Below, piece after piece: positions 8,195-18,545 of a stretch of 64,000 bases of DNA. This stretch comes from Thermomicrobiales bacterium (GTDB lineage: Bacteria > Chloroflexota > Chloroflexia > Thermomicrobiales > UBA6265): positions 1-64,000 of the forward strand of contig JAMLHN010000018.1 of the NCBI GenBank assembly GCA_023957115.1. Direction: 5' to 3'. Within the stretch, counting starts at the first letter, position 1, and each line of letters starts with the position of its first letter. The notes under the pieces were generated by a model. The model had not been told where the DNA came from and ran no database searches. It worked only from the letters and a program-made list of their open reading frames with translations. The translations under genes were made by a program, and so were the position numbers.

Positions 8195-8478
8195 CGATGC
8201 CCGTGAAGACGGGGACCAGTAGACAGTCGTCAGTCGCGAGCGACTCGGGGAGAGTGGAAGCCCGGGACCGATGGAACGCTGTCGAACGCGCCCCCGAACG
8301 GCCGGCCGAAGAAAGGGCGTTTGCCCAAGTAGGCTCGGGTGAGTGGCGCTCACGCCAGCAACAGCCAAGAGATGCATGGCGGTTCAGGCCATGCAAGAAG
8401 GGTGGTACCGCGAGCCTCGACGCTGCTCGCCCCTTCCGCTCGCTCGCTGCGAGCAACGCGCGTCTCGGAGTTTTCGAG
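8195..8478 (+). promoter_or_regulatory. T-box leader, specifier CGC (Arg)
   Basis: tRNA-sensing leader. Stem I has the specifier-loop signature AGTA (8218-8221) opposite GAA (8284-8286), followed by the specifier CGC (8287-8289, arginine) and a purine. The lower helix is GGGG with CCCC, and the upper helix is GACAG with CTGTC. The T-box sequence AGGGTGGTACCGCG lies at 8399-8412. Downstream, GACGC..TGCTCGC can pair with GCGAGCA..GCGTC before TTTT at 8471-8474, which would be the terminator. Uncharged tRNA-Arg should therefore turn on argF and the genes after it. The T-box core is certain; the codon assignment rests on hand folding. Confidence 0.9.
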
Positions 8479-9685: not shown

Positions 9686-9847
9686 ATGGTCGAATGTCCT
9701 GAATGCGGAGCGGAGTTCGATGCCGGCGCAGTTGAAGTGGGCGAGATCATCGTCTGCCCCGATTGCGGCGTCGACCTGGAAGTACTGACGGTCGACCCGG
9801 TGACAGTCGGTCAGGCGCCCGAGGAAGGCGAAGACTGGGGCGAATAG
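9686..9847 (+). CDS. lysW: Amino-group carrier protein LysW
   Basis: A 53-residue acidic carrier. The alpha-amino group of 2-aminoadipate (lysine branch) or glutamate (arginine branch) is linked to its C-terminal glutamate, and intermediates stay attached until LysK releases the product. A zinc knuckle is formed by CPEC near residue 4 and CPDC near 24. The C-terminus is EDWGE, the exact attachment signature of the family. A purine-rich ribosome site (GAGGAAGGAAACGAG) precedes the ATG. The gene is 94 bp after argF and upstream of the degenerate LysX-like gene and lysK. Confidence 0.97.
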   Translation: MVECPECGAEFDAGAVEVGEIIVCPDCGVDLEVLTVDPVTVGQAPEEGEDWGE

Positions 9848-9943
9848 CGATAAGGGTCCGGAGTTCTGAGTCCGGAGTGTTTCTCCGGCACCCGGGCTCC
9901 GGACCAAGAGCGCGGCGAGATGGCAGGAAGATTGGACAGGGAA

Positions 9944-10867
9944 ATGGGTAACGTAGCGGTGCTTTGCACCCGGGTTCGAGTCGAGGAGAAGCAGCTACTG
10001 GCGGGGTTCGCGAACGCGGGCATCCCGGCGGAGCCAGTTGCCCCCGAGTCGGACCCGTTCCCTATTCCGCGAGTCAGCCTCGCCACCACCGGGTTCGATC
10101 AGACCGCCACGTCCTCCGCCGGCAACCATCGCTTCTCGATCGTCATCGACCGGTTGCAAAATCGATCGGTGGGGAGCGCGATCATTCGGAATCACCGGGC
10201 CGTGGGAACGCCGGTCATCGATAGCGGAATCGCCGCGACCGGCAACCGGCTCGAGGTGTTGCATGCGCTGGCGGGGGCGGGGCTCCCATTGCCGCCAGTC
10301 CTGCTTGCGCTTTCGGAGGGCGCCGGTCTGGTCGCCATCGAGCAGACCGGCTATCCGGCCACGATCTTTCCCATGCAGATCGGTCTCTCGGGTATCGGCC
10401 TGCAAGATCGCGAGATTGCGGAAGCGATCCTGGAGCATCGCGATACGCTCGGCGGCTCGGCCGAGGCCGTGTTCGTGGTCCAGGCGGGCATTCACAACGA
10501 AGACGATCTGATCAAGGCGGTCGTGGTCGACGGAATGGTTGTCGCCTACGAGGGCACCTGTCTGCATCCAAACGGATTCGCCGGCTGCGAGCAGCTGGCC
10601 GTTGCCGCCGCGGCGGCGCTTGGCGCCACGTTCGTTGGCGTCACGATGGCGCACACGGCGGACGGTCTGGTCGTCTGGGACGTCCGTCCCACACCCGATT
10701 TCCGCAGGTCGATTCCGACCGGGACCGCGACCGTCGCCGATGCGCTGGTGGCGCTGGCGCAGCGGACGTCGAGCATGAATCCGGTTTCTGGTTCGATCTC
10801 TCGGGCGACGATGCCCTCATTGGTCGGAGCGTCCGGCCTGGGGAACGACATTGTCCTCTCAGCCTGA
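9944..10867 (+). CDS. Degenerate LysX/RimK-like ATP-grasp homologue
   Basis: A 307-residue protein (or 315 from an ATG at 9920) that aligns along its length with the two LysX-type ligases downstream. Its opening, VAVLCTRVRVEEK, matches [14 protein letters not shown] of lysX. Family active-site segments are eroded. The [14 protein letters not shown] segment that carries the ATP-binding Lys has become FPMQIGLSGIGL. The metal-binding [11 protein letters not shown] has become DVRPTPDFRRS, losing Glu and Asn. RDIRSFVV has become DLIKAVVV. It is probably not a ligase. It overlaps lysK by 17 bp, so it belongs to the Arg T-box operon. It might act as a LysW-binding adaptor or regulator; that is speculation. 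The reading frame is intact, which argues against simple decay. Confidence 0.8.
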   Translation: MGNVAVLCTRVRVEEKQLLAGFANAGIPAEPVAPESDPFPIPRVSLATTGFDQTATSSAGNHRFSIVIDRLQNRSVGSAIIRNHRAVGTPVIDSGIAATGNRLEVLHALAGAGLPLPPVLLALSEGAGLVAIEQTGYPATIFPMQIGLSGIGLQDREIAEAILEHRDTLGGSAEAVFVVQAGIHNEDDLIKAVVVDGMVVAYEGTCLHPNGFAGCEQLAVAAAAALGATFVGVTMAHTADGLVVWDVRPTPDFRRSIPTGTATVADALVALAQRTSSMNPVSGSISRATMPSLVGASGLGNDIVLSA

Positions 10868-11924
10868 AACGATCGCCGAACACGACACGACCGCTGCCGG
10901 CCAAATCGACCTGCTGCACGGGCTCGTTGCCATTCCGAGCCTGAGCGGCGAGGAGCGCGCGGCGGTGACCTACCTGGTTCAGGAAATGAGCGCGCGAGGG
11001 CTGGATGCGCATATCGACGCGGCCGGCAACGCCATTGGGGTCAAGGGCAACGGTCCGACCAGGATTGTGCTGCTTGGGCATATCGATACGGTGCCGGGCG
11101 ACATCCCGGTCCGGGTCGACGACGGCGTCTTGCACGGACGCGGCTCCGTCGACGCCAAAGGCCCCCTGGCCACGTTCGTCGCGGCAGCCGAACAGGCGTC
11201 GGGACAGAACGCAACGATCACGGTGGTCGGCGCGGTTGGCGAAGAGTCGATCGGTTCACCGGGGGCACATCATGCGGCCACCTGGCCGGCGCCCGATCTC
11301 TGCATCATCGGGGAACCGAGTAGCTGGGACGCGGTCTGTCTCGGATACCGGGGCACCATCTCATTTACCTATCGACTCGTCCAGGCAGGGCGGCATACCG
11401 CGGGTCCGGGCGAGACGGTTGGCGAACTGGGCGTGCAGTTCTGGAATCTGTTGCTGGCCGAGATTCAGCGTCTCAATGGCGACTCCGAAGGGTTCCACTC
11501 TATTGGAACATCCCTGCGATCGATCAATACCTCGACCGATGGTTTGTATGACACGGTCGAGATGTCGATTGGAATTCGCATTCCGCCGGCGGTGCCGTCC
11601 GCTCGTGTCCTGGAAATCATCGACGGACTCAGGGATCGGGCCGAAATCGAACTGCACGGGGTCCAGGAGGGGTATTCGACCAACAAGCGAAATCCGATGA
11701 CGGCTCCCTTTCTACGCGCCATTCGAGCCGAGGGCGGAAACCCACGGTTCACGCGCAAGCTGGGAACCGCGGATATGACCGTGGTCGGCCCCGTCTGGCA
11801 ATGCCCGATCGTGGCCTATGGTCCCGGCGATGCCGCACTCGATCACACCCCGGAAGAACGGATCGATCTGGATGACTACGTGCGGGCCGTACGGGTCCTG
11901 ACAGCAGTGCTGGATGCGGTATGA
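10851..11924 (+). CDS. lysK: [LysW]-lysine/ornithine hydrolase
   Basis: M20-family metallopeptidase that cleaves the finished lysine or ornithine from LysW. 357 residues from a TTG start at 10851, inside the end of the preceding gene. Metal ligands are visible in LLGHIDTVPG (His, Asp), GRGSVDAKGPL (Asp), VGAVGEESIGSPGA (Glu-Glu) and IIGEPSS, with a C-terminal His in LDHTPEE. The length and the GSVDAKGP motif suit LysK rather than ArgE or DapE. A 4-bp ATGA overlap couples it to the ArgX-type ligase. Confidence 0.93.
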   Translation: MSSQPETIAEHDTTAAGQIDLLHGLVAIPSLSGEERAAVTYLVQEMSARGLDAHIDAAGNAIGVKGNGPTRIVLLGHIDTVPGDIPVRVDDGVLHGRGSVDAKGPLATFVAAAEQASGQNATITVVGAVGEESIGSPGAHHAATWPAPDLCIIGEPSSWDAVCLGYRGTISFTYRLVQAGRHTAGPGETVGELGVQFWNLLLAEIQRLNGDSEGFHSIGTSLRSINTSTDGLYDTVEMSIGIRIPPAVPSARVLEIIDGLRDRAEIELHGVQEGYSTNKRNPMTAPFLRAIRAEGGNPRFTRKLGTADMTVVGPVWQCPIVAYGPGDAALDHTPEERIDLDDYVRAVRVLTAVLDAV

Positions 11925-12868
11925 CCATTTCGCATTTCATCAATGATCCGTTGACCGAAGATAGCGACATACGACTGGGCGTGCTCGTATCGCATCTGCG
12001 CATGGAAGAGAAGCTTATTCTCGAAGCAGGACGGCGGCGCGGCCTGGCCATCACACCGATCTTCGATCGGAAGATCGTGCTCGATCTTTCGAATCTTTCC
12101 GGGACGGCGGCATCGAGCTTCCCGTACGATGTCGTGCTCGACCGAAGCGTGGCGCACTCGCGCGCGCTTTACAGCTTGAAATCCTTCGAAGCGTGGGGCA
12201 TCCCCACGCTCAACCGGTCGACCGCCACCCAGATCTGCGACGACAAGGCGCTCTGTAGTCTGGCGCTTGGCTCGGCCAATGTACCGACGCCGCGCACGTT
12301 GCTCGCCTATTCGATCGAGTCCGCGCTGGAAGCATGTGCGTTGCTGGGATACCCAGCCGTGCTCAAGCCGGTTACCGGTTCCTGGGGGCGCCTGCTGGCC
12401 AAGGTGAACGGACCGGATCAGGCAAAAGCCCTGCTGGAACAAAAGGTGTCCCTGGGCTCGTATCAGCACGCGCTCTTCTACGTGCAGGAATACCAGGAGA
12501 AACCGGGGCGCGATATTCGCGTCTTCGTCGTGGGTGACCGGGTTTTGGCGGCGAGCTACCGGTCGGCCGATCATTGGATTACCAATACGGCCCGGGGCGC
12601 GTCTTCGTCGAAGTGCCCGATCACGCCCCAGATCGAAGATATCGTGCTGAATGCATGTCAAGCGGTCGGCGCGCGGCTGGCTGGGGTCGATTTGATCGAA
12701 ACCTACGATGGCTATACCGTGCTCGAAGTCAATACCGGTGGCGAGTTCCACGGACTGATGACGACCACCGATGTCGATATCGCCGGTGAGATCGTCGAGG
12801 AGGCGATGCGCATCGCACGCGCATCGGCCATGCGTCGTCTCGAAACGACTACCGCTGCAGGAGATTGA
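11921..12868 (+). CDS. argX: LysW ligase, ArgX type (glutamate--LysW)
   Basis: ATP-grasp ligase joining an amino acid to the C-terminus of LysW, 315 residues. Active-site segments are intact: [16 protein letters not shown] (ATP-binding Lys), FYVQEYQE, GRDIRVFVVGD and the metal-binding EVNTGGEFHG. The final segment differs from the lysX paralogue ([11 protein letters not shown]), as expected for different substrates. It is last in the operon behind the Arg T-box, so glutamate to ornithine (ArgX) is the better guess. The assignment of this gene to Arg and the next ligase to Lys is inferred from the leaders and this motif, not proven. Confidence 0.85.
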   Translation: MTISHFINDPLTEDSDIRLGVLVSHLRMEEKLILEAGRRRGLAITPIFDRKIVLDLSNLSGTAASSFPYDVVLDRSVAHSRALYSLKSFEAWGIPTLNRSTATQICDDKALCSLALGSANVPTPRTLLAYSIESALEACALLGYPAVLKPVTGSWGRLLAKVNGPDQAKALLEQKVSLGSYQHALFYVQEYQEKPGRDIRVFVVGDRVLAASYRSADHWITNTARGASSSKCPITPQIEDIVLNACQAVGARLAGVDLIETYDGYTVLEVNTGGEFHGLMTTTDVDIAGEIVEEAMRIARASAMRRLETTTAAGD

Positions 12869-12902
12869 CAGGAGCCAAGGCATTTCCTAAGCTCAATATC
12901 AA

Positions 12903-13220
12903 TGGCTTCGACGGGGAGTTCCCGGTGGGTCCGAAGCAGCAGAGAGCGGGTAGCTGGTGTGAATCCCGCGGATAGTCGGCCCAGAGGACAAGACCCCAGA
13001 GCCGCCGGAAGAAGCGGAGCGGACGCTCCCCAGTAGAACCGGCCGGGTGCTCCCGTTACTGAGCTCAGTCTGTACCGAGCAACCCGTTGGTCCGCCGCGC
13101 GCGGCGATGCGACGGAACGCTCGACTGGCTGACGAGGCCGTCCGCCAAAAGAGGACGGCGAACAAAGGTGGTACCACGGAGTGAAGCCCTCCGTCCTTTG
13201 GACGTGGGGCTTCTGTATTT
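12903..13220 (+). promoter_or_regulatory. T-box leader, specifier AAG (Lys)
   Basis: Second tRNA-sensing leader. The specifier loop is AGTT (12917-12920) opposite GAC (12987-12989), followed by AAG (12990-12992, lysine) and a purine. The lower helix is GGGG (12913-12916) with CCCC (12994-12997). The distal AGAGAG and GGTGTGAA motifs of Stem I are at about 12941-12963. The T-box sequence AAAGGTGGTACCACGG lies at 13164-13179. A terminator stem GAAGCCC (13183-13189) with GGGCTTC (13207-13213) is followed by TGTATTTATT. Uncharged tRNA-Lys should raise lysX expression. The AGTT/GAC pair departs from the usual AGTA/GAA, so the codon call is slightly less secure than for the Arg leader. Confidence 0.88.
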
Positions 13221-13240: not shown

Positions 13241-14137
13241 GTGGGTACGCCACTCAATATCGCCATTCTCATGTCCCGGGTCCGGGTCGAAGAAAAACTG
13301 CTGCTGACCGAGCTGGAAAAACGCGGGGTCGCGATTCAGCGGATCGACGACCGCACGATCAATCTCGATCTCGAACGCCCCAACCTCGATTGCGATGTCG
13401 TGCTCGAACGCGCGGTCAATCACTTGCGCGCGCTCTATGCATTGCGCATTTACAACGACTGGGGTATTCCCACCGTCAACACGTACGATGTGGCAAACAC
13501 GTGTGGCGACAAGCTGCTGACCAGCGCAGCGCTGGCGCGCCACAATGTCCCCTCCCCGCGCACCGTCATCGCCTTCACTCCGGAATCCGCGCTCGAAGCG
13601 ATCGAGGAGATGGGCTATCCCGTCGTCCTCAAGCCAGCGGTGGGATCGTGGGGGCGTCTCCTGGCGAAAGTCAACGACCGGGACGCCGCCGAGGCGCTAC
13701 TGGAGCACAAAGTCACACTCGGATCGTTCCATCACGGAGCCTTCTACATCCAGGAATATGTCGAAAAAGGTGGACGGGATATTCGCTCCTTTGTCGTGGA
13801 TGACGAGACGATTTGCGCCATCTACCGTGCCTCCCCGCACTGGATCACCAATACGGCGAGAGGGGGCGCTGCCTCGAACTGTCCAATCACGGCGGAGATC
13901 GACGAGGTGTCACGCGCCGCGGCGCGGGCGGTCGGCGGTGGTGTGGTTGCCGTCGATCTCTTCGAAACCGAACGGGGCATGCTGGTCAACGAAGTGAACT
14001 ACACGATGGAGTTTCGCAACAGCATCGACACGACCGGGGTGAATATCCCGGCCCGAATCGTCGATTATGTCATCAAGGTCGGCGAAGCGGGCCGCGCTCG
14101 CGCTGAGCAGAACGGCCGAGTTGCGACGCTCGCTTAA
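13241..14137 (+). CDS. lysX: 2-aminoadipate--[LysW] ligase
   Basis: ATP-grasp ligase that charges LysW with 2-aminoadipate at the start of carrier-bound lysine synthesis. 298 residues from the GTG at 13241 behind a strong GGAGGT; this start lies just after the T-box terminator and fits homologue N-termini. Intact motifs: [35 protein letters not shown] and [11 protein letters not shown] followed by DTTGVNIP, as in classical LysX. The Lys-specific T-box supports the lysine assignment. Its stop codon touches a heptamer repeat. Confidence 0.92.
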
Positions 14138-14374: not shown

Positions 14375-15424
14375 ATGGCGGTAAAGACTTCGATCATTGG
14401 TGGGTCGGGATATGCGGGCGGGGAGCTGTTGCGGCTGCTTCTGAGCCATCCGATGGCGCAGGTGCACCAGGTGACCTCGGAGCGCAATGCCGGGAAGTTC
14501 GTCTTCTCGGTGCATCCGAACCTCCGCAAGCGAACGCAGCTCAAGTTCTCCAGTGTGAATGACATCGAACCGGTAGACGTGCTGTTCGTGGCGACACCGC
14601 ATGGTGCGTCGATGAAGAAGATGGAGGAATTCCGCGCACTCGCCCCGATCGTGATCGACCTGAGCGCCGACTTCCGCTTGAATTCTCCGGACGGTTATCC
14701 GAAGTGGTATGCCCACGATCACATCCTTCCCGAGATGTTGACCGAGTTCATCTACGGAATTCCGGAGCTGCACCGGGATGAGATCCGCGAAGCCAATCTG
14801 ATCTCGAGCGCCGGCTGCATGGCCACCACGTCCATCCTCGGGCTCTATCCCCTCTTCCAGGCGGGTGTGGTCGATCTGTCGATGCCGGCAATCATCGAAG
14901 CCAAAACTGGGTCGTCGGGTTCCGGCAACTCGGCCAATCTTTCCTCACACCATCCCGAGCGGGCAGGGGTGATCCGCTCGTTCAAACCGACCGGCCACCG
15001 GCATTCGGCCGAGATCATCCAGGAGCTGACCTTCGACGGCAATGTGCCGGAGATCGCGTTCTCGGCCACCTCGGTCGAGGCCGTGCGCGGCATTCTGGCA
15101 ACCTCGCATGTCTACCTGAAGGAGCCGATGACCGACAAAGAGGTCTGGGCAATCTATCGGAAGGCGTACAAGGACGAACCGTTCCTGCGGGTGGTGAAGG
15201 AATCGTCCGGAATCCACCGGTATCCCGAACCGAAGATCCTTTCGGGTTCGAACTACTGCGATGTCGGGTTCGAGCGGGATCCAGACTCGAACCGCCTGGT
15301 TGTGATGGCCGCGCTCGACAACCTGATGAAGGGCGCCTCCGGACAGGCCGTCCAGGCATTCAATATCCGAATGGGGTACGAGGAGACGTGCGGGATCGAT
15401 TTTCCGGGTCTCCACCCGATCTAG
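14375..15424 (+). CDS. lysY: [LysW]-acyl phosphate reductase (LysY/ArgC)
   Basis: NADPH-dependent reductase that turns the LysW-bound aminoadipyl (or glutamyl) phosphate into the semialdehyde. 349 residues. N-terminal Rossmann motif IIGGSGYAGGELLRLL; catalytic Cys in LISSAGCMATTSI; catalytic His region FKPTGHRHSAE. Length and order match the ArgC/LysY family. No second copy is in the window, so it probably serves both branches. It begins a separate cluster (lysY, LLM gene, lysZ, lysJ) with no T-box in front, which fits a shared function. Confidence 0.93.
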   Translation: MAVKTSIIGGSGYAGGELLRLLLSHPMAQVHQVTSERNAGKFVFSVHPNLRKRTQLKFSSVNDIEPVDVLFVATPHGASMKKMEEFRALAPIVIDLSADFRLNSPDGYPKWYAHDHILPEMLTEFIYGIPELHRDEIREANLISSAGCMATTSILGLYPLFQAGVVDLSMPAIIEAKTGSSGSGNSANLSSHHPERAGVIRSFKPTGHRHSAEIIQELTFDGNVPEIAFSATSVEAVRGILATSHVYLKEPMTDKEVWAIYRKAYKDEPFLRVVKESSGIHRYPEPKILSGSNYCDVGFERDPDSNRLVVMAALDNLMKGASGQAVQAFNIRMGYEETCGIDFPGLHPI

Positions 15425-15520
15425 GCCCAACCGCCTCCCCTACGCCGGCGAGATTTGACACGGGAACCCATGCGTGCGTCATATGGATTCGTGCCGAAAA
15501 TGACGCATGCGAGGCGAGTA

Positions 15521-16339
15521 ATGAAGTTTGGATTTGTCATTCCATACGCCAGTGCCAGTGAGTTTCTGGAACTGGCAGTCGAAATCGAACAAGCCGGTTG
15601 GGATGCGGCGTTCGGCTGGGAAACGGTCTACGGGATCGATCCCTGGGTCGTGCTCGGCGGTATGGCGGCATTGACCGAGCGGGTCACGCTTGGCACGTTG
15701 CTGACGCCACCGTCGCGACGGCGACCGTGGAAACTGGCGAGTGAGCTGGTGACGCTCGATCTGGTCTCGAACGGACGTGCGCTGCTCTGCGCGGGGCTGG
15801 GCGCCCTGGAGACGGGATTCGCGCAGGTCGGTGAAGAAACCGACCGCAAGAAACGCGCCGAGCTGATGGACGAATGCCTCGAATTGTTGACGCAATTCTG
15901 GACCGGCAAACCGTTCGAGTTTCACGGTCGGCACTACGACGTCGATTGGACCGCCTCGATGGGCGAAGTGGGCCCCGTACAGCAACCACGCATTCCGATC
16001 TGGAATGTTGGGTTGATGGGAAGCACTGCCTCGCTGCGTCGTGCCGCCCGTTGGGACGGTGTGCTGCCAAACATGCGCGACCCGGAGACGGGATGGCGTG
16101 TTCCAGGTCCGGCGGATCTGCCCGGGTTGCTGGCGGAGCTGGAAGCGCTTGGCGCGAATCTGGATACGTTCGACATCGCAGTCGAAGGCGTCACGCCCAT
16201 CGGAAACACCGCCGCGCTCGACAACGTGCGTGGGTTGGCGGAAAACGGGGCGACCTGGTGGATCGAATCGATGTGGGAAACCCCGGGCGGCATTCCCGCC
16301 GTGCGGGAACGAATCGCGGCAGGACCGCCGCAGCTCTAG
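15521..16339 (+). CDS. LLM-class flavin-dependent oxidoreductase
   Basis: Luciferase-like TIM-barrel protein of 272 residues, starting MKFGFVIPYASASEF at the ATG at 15521; upstream ATGs exist but lack homology support. Family features are an N-terminal strand, RVTLGTLLTPPSRRRPWKLASELVT-type sequence (15686-15755), and a WDGVLPNM segment late in the protein. It would use FMN or F420; which one cannot be told. It sits between lysY and lysZ, 15 bp from lysZ, so it is co-transcribed with the Lys/Arg genes although no such step is known in the LysW pathway. Confidence 0.85.
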   Translation: MKFGFVIPYASASEFLELAVEIEQAGWDAAFGWETVYGIDPWVVLGGMAALTERVTLGTLLTPPSRRRPWKLASELVTLDLVSNGRALLCAGLGALETGFAQVGEETDRKKRAELMDECLELLTQFWTGKPFEFHGRHYDVDWTASMGEVGPVQQPRIPIWNVGLMGSTASLRRAARWDGVLPNMRDPETGWRVPGPADLPGLLAELEALGANLDTFDIAVEGVTPIGNTAALDNVRGLAENGATWWIESMWETPGGIPAVRERIAAGPPQL

Positions 16340-16354
16340 CAGAGGAAGGAATCG

Positions 16355-17179
16355 ATGATCGTCGTCAAGATCGGCGGCGGGGCGGGCATCACTGCCGAGT
16401 CCTATGCCAACTTCGCGGAGGACCTGGCAGCGCTGGAAATGCCGGTCGTCCTGATTCATGGCGGAAACGCCGAATTCAGCCAGCTCAGCCGCGATCTTGG
16501 ACGTCCGCCACGGATGGTGACGAACGAGAAGGGACGCGTCAGCCGCTACACCGATTCCGAAACGATCGATATGATGCTGATGACCTACGCCGGCAAGGTC
16601 AACAAACGAATCGTCGCCCAATTGCAGGCAGCCGGGGTCAACGCGGTGGGCCTCAGCGCGATCGACGGACGGATCGCAACCGGGCGGCGCAAATCGGTCA
16701 TTCGGGTCATCGAGGACGGCAAGGCCAGGGTGCTGCGTGACGACCATGCCGGCACCATCGAGCAGGTCGACACAACGCTCATCCGCCTCCTACTCGATGC
16801 CGGGTATCTGCCGGTCATCACGCCACCGGCGCTCGCGCGTGCCGAGGGGACTCCGATCAATGTCGACGGCGATAAGCTCTCCCTCGAGCTGGCGATCGAG
16901 TTGGGCGCGGAGGCAATCTACTTCTTCTCGGATACCCCGGGGCTGCTGGCCGACAAGGACGACGAATCGACCCTGATACGCCAGATCGACATCGCCGATC
17001 CGGAAACGGCCCTCGAATCGGCACAGGGGCGGATGAAGGTCAAAGTCGAGTCGGCAATCAAGGCGATCGAGCGAGGCGTCGGACGGGTCGTCTTCTCGGA
17101 CGCCCGCGCCGAGCATCCATTGCAACGCGCGCTGGATGGCGAAGGCACGGTGATCGAACGACTGAGTCCTGGGTCCTGA
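16355..17179 (+). CDS. lysZ: [LysW]-aminoadipate/glutamate kinase
   Basis: Amino-acid-kinase-family enzyme that phosphorylates the side-chain carboxylate of LysW-bound aminoadipate or glutamate. 274 residues. N-terminal MIVVKIGGGAGI (phosphate-binding Lys and Gly), VVLIHGGNAEF, the substrate region RYTDSETIDMM, and the late INVDGDKLSLELAIELGA and FFSDTPGLL segments typical of the ArgB/LysZ family. It precedes lysJ. The stop codon lies inside a short repeat built on GTCCTGGGTCCTG. Confidence 0.93.
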   Translation: MIVVKIGGGAGITAESYANFAEDLAALEMPVVLIHGGNAEFSQLSRDLGRPPRMVTNEKGRVSRYTDSETIDMMLMTYAGKVNKRIVAQLQAAGVNAVGLSAIDGRIATGRRKSVIRVIEDGKARVLRDDHAGTIEQVDTTLIRLLLDAGYLPVITPPALARAEGTPINVDGDKLSLELAIELGAEAIYFFSDTPGLLADKDDESTLIRQIDIADPETALESAQGRMKVKVESAIKAIERGVGRVVFSDARAEHPLQRALDGEGTVIERLSPGS

Positions 17180-17327: not shown

Positions 17328-18545
17328 TTGGCAACCGATTACGACATGAGGACAACGACCTTGACGATTCCAACCCCGATGCTGGCATTCGATTCGATTC
17401 GGGAGCTCGAAACCGATCTCCAGATGCCGCTCTATGCGAAGCGAGATATTGCCCTGGTGCGTGGAGAGGGATCGTATCTCTTCGACTCCGAAGGGAAGCG
17501 GTACCTCGATGCCATGAGCAACTACGGTGTGGCGGCGCTGGGGCATGCCGATCCGGTATTCATGGCGGCAATGGCGGATCAGCTCTCCCGGCTGACGACC
17601 TGCCATCAGAGCTTCTATAACGATGCGCGCGCGGCTGCGCTCGCCGCCATCCGGCAGATCGCGCCGGATGGGTTGACGCGCTATTTCACCAGCAACTCGG
17701 GTGCGGAAGCCATCGAAGCCGGGTTGAAATTCGCGATGATGGCCACCGGGCGGCACAACGTGGTGGCATTGCGGCGCGGTTATCACGGGCGAACGCTTGG
17801 AGCGTTGTCCGCTACCTTCGATCCGAAGTACCGCAAACCGTTCGAGCCATTGCCGATTCCCGTCACCCATGTCACCTTCAACGACTACGAGGCGCTGGCC
17901 GAGCAGGTGAACGAGGAGACCGCCGCAATCATCCTCGAACCGGTGCAGGGCGAGGCCGGCATCTTTCCGGCCGATGACGACTATCTGCGTGCCGTGCGCG
18001 AGCTCGCGACGGCCAATGGCGCACTGCTGATCGCCGATGAGGTGCAAACCGGATTCCGCACCGGCGCGCCATTCGCGATTACGCACGCCGGAATCTCGCC
18101 CGATATCCTGTGCACCGCCAAGGCAATCGGCAACGGATTCCCGGTGGGCGTCACGATGGTCACCGAGGCGATTTCCGAAAAGACCGTCGGCGGCGCCCAC
18201 GGCACCACGTTTGGAGGCAACCCGCTTGCGATGCGCGCCGTGGTCACGACCCTGCAGGCGTTCCAGGATCGCAACCTGTACGCTCGGTCGGCGGAATTGG
18301 GAGACCGGCTGATCTCCAGCGTCGAAGCGCTCGAAAGTCCGAAAATCCGCCAGGTTCGCGGGCGAGGCTTTATGATCGGTGTGGAGATGAAGGAGCGAAT
18401 CACCCCAACCCTACGGGCGCTTCAGGAAAGTGGTGTGCTGGCGTTGCCGGCCAGTCCGGTCGTCTTCCGGCTCCTGCCGCCCTTGGTTTGGGAAGAGGAG
18501 CAGGTGAATGAATTCATCGGAACGCTGGCGAAGGTGCTCGCCTGA
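17328..18545 (+). CDS. lysJ: [LysW]-aminoadipate/glutamate semialdehyde aminotransferase
   Basis: Class III PLP aminotransferase that converts the LysW-bound semialdehyde to LysW-lysine or LysW-ornithine. About 400 residues. Visible motifs: YFTSNSGAEAIEAGLKFA, RGYHGRTLGALS, IILEPVQGEAGIFP, LLIADEVQTGFRTG and the PLP-lysine region DILCTAKAIGNGFPVG. The start is unclear: TTG 17328, ATG 17346 or ATG 17379-17390 are possible and none has a strong ribosome site. It completes the pathway lysW/lysX/lysZ/lysY/lysJ/lysK. Confidence 0.92.
   Translation: MATDYDMRTTTLTIPTPMLAFDSIRELETDLQMPLYAKRDIALVRGEGSYLFDSEGKRYLDAMSNYGVAALGHADPVFMAAMADQLSRLTTCHQSFYNDARAAALAAIRQIAPDGLTRYFTSNSGAEAIEAGLKFAMMATGRHNVVALRRGYHGRTLGALSATFDPKYRKPFEPLPIPVTHVTFNDYEALAEQVNEETAAIILEPVQGEAGIFPADDDYLRAVRELATANGALLIADEVQTGFRTGAPFAITHAGISPDILCTAKAIGNGFPVGVTMVTEAISEKTVGGAHGTTFGGNPLAMRAVVTTLQAFQDRNLYARSAELGDRLISSVEALESPKIRQVRGRGFMIGVEMKERITPTLRALQESGVLALPASPVVFRLLPPLVWEEEQVNEFIGTLAKVLA

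Follow-up and report, generated by a model that had tools for sequence, protein, structure and literature searches.

With LysW-type carrier proteins, one set of enzymes makes both lysine and arginine. To our knowledge, how the shared carrier is partitioned between the two products is not understood. The DNA analyzed here, a stretch of 64,000 nucleotides from a Thermomicrobiales bacterium (the window), carries two intact ligase genes of the LysX/ArgX type together with a third LysX-like gene, called pX, between lysW and lysK. This third gene was originally predicted to encode a pseudo-enzyme without ATP-grasp active-site residues that could bind LysW as an adaptor. Whether pX is a real gene, what its product has lost, and what it may be kept for are the questions that this locus raises.

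The third LysX-like gene and its operon

The pX gene occupies 9944..10867 on the forward strand and encodes 307 amino acids. Its coordinates, strand, frame, and position between lysW and lysK were correctly given in the original prediction, with the start ATG at 9944 and the stop TGA at 10865-10867; an alternative ATG lies upstream at 9920, but the N-termini of pX homologues fit 9944 instead. Given a TTG start at 10851 for lysK, the two genes overlap by 17 nt. That pX is LysX-like is confirmed by profile search and structure prediction, which agree. Homology to LysX beyond chance is indicated by phmmer (8.8e-17 against Thermus LysX, 3vpd), by the Pfam domain LysX_preATP_grasp (PF22626, 31.9 bits, above the cut-off of 27), and by an AlphaFold2 model whose best PDB match is LysX 3VPD (Foldseek, E 2e-19). 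The product thus has the LysX pre-ATP-grasp domain and an ATP-grasp fold. The Pfam RimK ATP-grasp match is below cut-off, and TIGR02144 scores 69.4 bits, under the curated cut-off of 275.6 that both other ligases (X1 and X2) pass. The model has a pLDDT of 85, its low-confidence parts being a linker and the C-terminal 27 residues, and the C-terminal tail is disordered from about residue 281. Among solved structures, LysX, ArgX, and PDB 5I47 come closest to it. The open frame is weak evidence at this GC content, as 2.4% of codon-position shuffles stay open, so that the weight for a real gene falls on conservation in relatives rather than on the frame alone. A chance ORF in GC-rich DNA is ruled out by homology, fold, and synteny. 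No copy of pX was found on a plasmid. In most pX copies of the window's own family (f1), a variable disordered linker is followed by a conserved terminal V-[VA]-L-[ST]-A at the lysK start (10790-10867 in the window), which could represent a peptide motif or a vestige of translational coupling.

All genes of the cluster are on the forward strand, in the order argF - lysW - pX - lysK - X1 - X2 - argC - argB - argD. The carrier gene lysW (9686..9847; 53 aa; Pfam PF21344; TIGR01206, 68.6 bits, cut-off 53.2) ends in EDWGE and is the sole copy in the genome. Downstream of pX, lysK (10851..11924) encodes the [LysW]-lysine/ornithine hydrolase (NF003367, 404 bits, cut-off 363). It is followed by X1 (11921..12868; TIGR02144, 295 bits), an intact ligase that keeps the GSWGR and EVN motifs and bears a GGEF signature, read as ArgX-type; from this signature and its T-box context, X1 is probably glutamate-specific. 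X2 (13241..14137; TIGR02144, 344.7 bits; phmmer to 3vpd, 2e-93) is an intact LysX of the AAA type bearing EVNxTMEFxNS, the signature of Thermus LysX, and together with its leader this suggests specificity for aminoadipate. The cluster continues with argC/lysY (14375..15424; TIGR01850, 385 bits, cut-off 233.6), argB/lysZ (16355..17179; NF010659, 361 bits, cut-off 223), and argD/lysJ (17328..18545; best match NF042418, 413 bits, below the cut-off of 700). A search of the same genome for homocitrate synthase gave a best match below cut-off.

Two T-box leaders (Rfam RF00230) were detected on the forward strand, each below the gathering score of 93: one at 8197..8437 (62.9 bits, E 2.4e-12), before argF-lysW-pX-lysK-argX, and one at 12899..13201 (61.1 bits, E 6.6e-12), before lysX (X2). 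Their specifiers, read by eye from the alignment, are CGC (Arg) and AAG (Lys), and a relative (G004, with CGC at locus L042) has the same two. As judged from these leaders, pX sits in a putatively arginine-controlled half of the operon, with the active lysX behind a lysine-type T-box. The two leaders, both under the Rfam threshold, would place one shared LysW pathway under dual control by an Arg-type and a Lys-type T-box. The listed argF ORF (464 aa from 8197) starts within the first leader, and its translation probably begins around 8520 or further downstream. Thirteen loci of the window's family (L033, L035-L038, L041, L043, L045-L049, and L051) have two adjoining argF-like carbamoyltransferase matches 5' of lysW, compared with a single one in the window. 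Between argC and argB (15455-16339), an ORF resembles luciferase-like (LLM) flavin oxidoreductases. In Sphaerobacter, a long palindromic hairpin follows argX (L057:9553-9649); its miRNA-family matches on both strands are surely spurious, given the inverted repeat.

Loss of the ATP, metal, and LysW-tail sites

The window pX was aligned with 50 canonical LysX/ArgX and two RimK sequences, with numbering according to the window LysX (X2). K91 corresponds to R102 of pX, K131 to F142, and E172 to A181; D180 has become L189, R196 has become T205, D239 has become T234, and the loop bearing N204 and R207 is deleted. In the EVN metal site, E251 is replaced by D246 and N253 by R248. The replacement of the ATP-site Lys and of the EVN Glu and Asn had been read from the gene before, and these substitutions bear it out. 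The window pX is without both ATP lysines (one now Arg), the hinge Glu, and the TNxARGG loop; its metal site has lost Asp, Glu, and Asn; and zero polar nucleotide contacts are left. In Pseudomonas RimK, the side chains contacting ADP are K141, E178, I180, F210, S212, and N213 (PMC10092738), and five of these six (K141, E178, F210, S212, and N213) have no counterpart in pX, the I180 position still being aliphatic.

A further loss, which goes beyond the earlier reading, concerns the carrier. The GSWGR motif reads the C-terminal EDWGE of LysW (PMC10433800), and it is found in 0 of 37 aligned third copies vs 50 of 50 canonical LysX/ArgX. None of the residues expected of a LysX/ArgX ligase (ATP K91/K131/E172/N204, the metal Glu and Asn, and GSWGR) is present in the window pX, and the sequence alignment revealed no intact ATP site at shifted positions; such a site would have spoken against a dead enzyme. 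An active pX with an altered ATP site or a different chemistry would draw on the overall ATP-grasp fold, which is kept, and on two families of the order (f4 and f5) that retain some catalytic elements; but since the window's family is without both ATP lysines, the ADP-contacting Glu, the TNxARGG loop, and the metal Asn, and no shifted replacement residues were seen, this reading is highly improbable.

What pX retains lies elsewhere. The invariant non-catalytic residues R10, R12, E14, E15, K16, R70, E164, H165, R166, and L169 are kept, and conservation peaks at the N-terminus, in RxRxEEK of the pre-ATP-grasp domain. Residues specific to LysX have not been retained in preference to those that RimK also has (27% vs 44% in family f1). 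Among the 13 former catalytic positions covered by a ligand-pocket test, 11 were alignable, and mean conservation of the former catalytic columns is 0.53 vs 0.60 for random columns. A re-tooled ligand pocket is, overall, unsupported as a general claim across these positions. Within family f1, R102 (at the K91 site) and D246 (at the E251 site) are invariant, as is the new W245. These residues, together with the arginine-type T-box 5' of the pX operon, speak for a sensor, in which the former active site would bind a ligand such as arginine, lysine, or AMP and signal to the pathway. However, most former active-site columns are unconserved, and R102/W245/D246 are not common to families f2 and f3, which makes such a sensor improbable.

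Conservation, selection, and origin of the slot

Sixty-one related genomes were searched, and 41 have lysW, each in single copy. In all 41 of these sampled lysW-bearing Thermomicrobiales genomes, which span five families, lysW and lysK flank a LysX homologue (the count includes G018, where the adjacency of lysW and the third gene spans a contig break). Relatives of pX in the window's own family share 34-45% identity, and four other families of the order have a third homologue in the same slot. Local degeneration in a single genome is ruled out by this distribution. The degree of loss differs among families: in f4 and f5, the LKP/TKP lysine and the RDIR/RDLR segment are still present and GSWGR is gone; in f3, the family of Sphaerobacter, the lysine remains and the EVN motif is missing; and f1 has lost nearly all active-site features and acquired a signature of its own (P-x-T, EHRxxLG, QxG, and WDVxPVPEFR). 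From these alignments, loss of the ATP site is graded, from partial in f4 and f5 to near-complete in f1.

The third copy is under purifying selection. In close f3 pairs its dN/dS is 0.10-0.31 vs 0.02-0.10 for ArgX in the same genomes; f1 pairs give 0.13-0.54 and are more diverged, with dS near saturation. These estimates cover over 30 pairs, all of them pairs of other copies, the window pX itself being without a relative near enough. The third copy evolves at two to four times the rate of ArgX. Frames are open in the third copies examined across the five families, and neither a disrupted frame nor a dN/dS near 1, the marks of a decaying pseudogene, was seen. The maintenance suggested by the original prediction is therefore upheld by the 41 genomes and by dN/dS mostly of 0.10-0.31 in close pairs, with neither absence nor decay in close relatives. 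Catalytic residues have been lost while the frame is kept under purifying selection across lineages, the pattern of a pseudoenzyme. Decay is ruled out by dN/dS in the more than 30 pairs. A relic, in which lysX became redundant after a second lysX arose and slowly decays, kept only for lysK translation or by chance, would suit the fast evolution of pX, the graded loss of catalytic residues, and the second lysX found intact in the well-assembled genomes examined. It is nevertheless very unlikely, as none of the examined third copies is broken, dN/dS stays well below 1, and pX has its own EHRxxLG, QxG, and WDVxPVPEFR elements.

When 300 genomes from across the phylum were searched, the f1 profile matched strongly only in two, both from the window's family; outside the order, 9 of 10 extra-LysX loci inspected keep GSWGR. 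The exception is isolated: in a genome of the same class and another family (G140, L221:2770-3540), a divergent LysX-like copy lies away from lysW and has GDKGS replacing GSWGR; here LysW-tail binding may have been lost independently.

The slot itself seems to be older than pX. In another family of the same class (f13, genomes G144-G149), the lysW-lysK slot is filled by an intact LysX that has every motif, and ArgX follows lysK; pX therefore appears to occupy an inherited lysX slot. The active lysX has a different location: in f1 it adjoins argX, and in the two f3 genomes that were checked it is carried by a separate contig or replicon. In the tree, all third copies group together as a single clade (support 100/97) with long branches, outside the ArgX clade, and a test did not reject a group uniting the least diverged third copies with the f13 slot gene (p 0.25). 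Most simply, lysX would have been duplicated, after which the old copy lost catalysis, a reading of which the tree is no proof.

This origin bears on the proposed role as an adaptor, in which pX would bind LysW, with or without its amino acid, by its globular domain and pass it between enzymes or aid product release together with LysK. The gene always adjoins the sole lysW and lysK, and in the window the lysK start overlaps its end. However, the neighborhood looks inherited from an active lysX, so position beside lysW and lysK is no independent sign of partnership or of a new LysW role, and the motif that reads EDWGE is gone from every third copy. Capture of the LysW tail by pX is unlikely on both grounds; in its canonical form it is disfavored by the motif comparison, and the adaptor as a whole is unlikely. 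From the original prediction, a catalytically dead, maintained LysX paralogue stands, and the LysW adaptor as stated does not.

A possible partner of the active ligases and its known relatives

Altogether, it is strongly supported that pX is a pseudoenzyme, a LysX paralogue in the ancestral lysX slot, kept by selection for a non-catalytic job. A stepwise loss of predicted ATP, metal, and LysW-tail binding in the Thermomicrobiales copies is strongly supported by the residue comparisons. As for the job, we infer, with a probability of roughly 0.4, that pX serves the active ligases, ArgX (X1) foremost, as a partner subunit without catalytic activity. The pX protein would join ArgX or LysX through its retained N-terminal pre-ATP-grasp domain (RxRxEEK) and the EHRxxLG helix, and could thereby tune the loading of the single LysW pool with glutamate or aminoadipate. 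ArgX would be the first-choice partner, as it shares with pX the operon behind the arginine-type T-box. In RimK dimers, N-terminal loops lie against the ATP domain of the partner (PMC10092738); this contact, together with RxRxEEK being the most conserved part of pX, makes a mixed complex with ArgX or LysX the leading guess. Evolutionary-rate covariation in f1 and f3 singled out no pX partner: in f1, r is 0.54 for pX-ArgX and 0.43 for lysK-ArgX, and in f3, argB and argD rank higher. The conserved N-terminus could instead serve homo-oligomerization or folding only, and a ligand pocket would fit the invariant R102, D246, and W245 of the window's family equally well. An order-wide regulatory pseudo-ligase, whose mixed complex with ArgX (and LysX) would divide the shared LysW pool between arginine and lysine synthesis, is a more tentative extension of the partner-subunit reading, and a doubtful one.

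Retention of pX points to an unrecognized helper or regulatory role in the lysine/arginine pathway, and a dead ligase beside the sole lysW throughout the order offers a direct handle on how the carrier is divided. The graded series of third copies is a case in which an ATP-grasp ligase loses catalysis in steps and stays useful. An order-wide pseudoenzyme of the LysW pathway is apparently unreported in the searched literature, in which no paper was found tying ATP-grasp pseudoenzymes to LysX. We know of no earlier pseudoenzyme in the amino-group-carrier-protein pathway, so that pX would be the first if the regulatory reading is true.

Among known proteins, LysX and ArgX (3VPD, 3VPB, 5K2M; TIGR02144) resemble pX in fold, length, N-terminal pre-ATP-grasp domain, and the operon position of lysX, and their EHKxxLG helix has a counterpart in EHRxxLG; unlike them, pX is without ATP or metal residues, GSWGR, and the TNxARGG loop. 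A crystal structure from Sphaerobacter thermophilus, PDB 5I47, titled only 'RimK domain protein ATP-grasp', is 100% identical to the product of the third gene of G045, in the position orthologous to pX between lysW and lysK. It shares 28% identity with the window pX, keeps the LKS lysine, and is also without GSWGR and the EVN motif. No mention of it was found in the searched literature; the reading of pX given here provides it with a testable role and, if the regulatory reading is true, an unrecognized structure is already in the PDB. RimK, the ribosomal protein S6 glutamate ligase, has the ATP-grasp superfamily fold in common with pX, but is active, uses another acceptor, and does not have the EEK and EHKxxLG elements retained in pX. 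Finally, HisZ is a HisRS paralogue that partners HisG, a regulatory pseudoenzyme paralogue; it is like pX in being an inactive paralogue kept in amino-acid biosynthesis, and unlike it in fold and pathway, which are unrelated.
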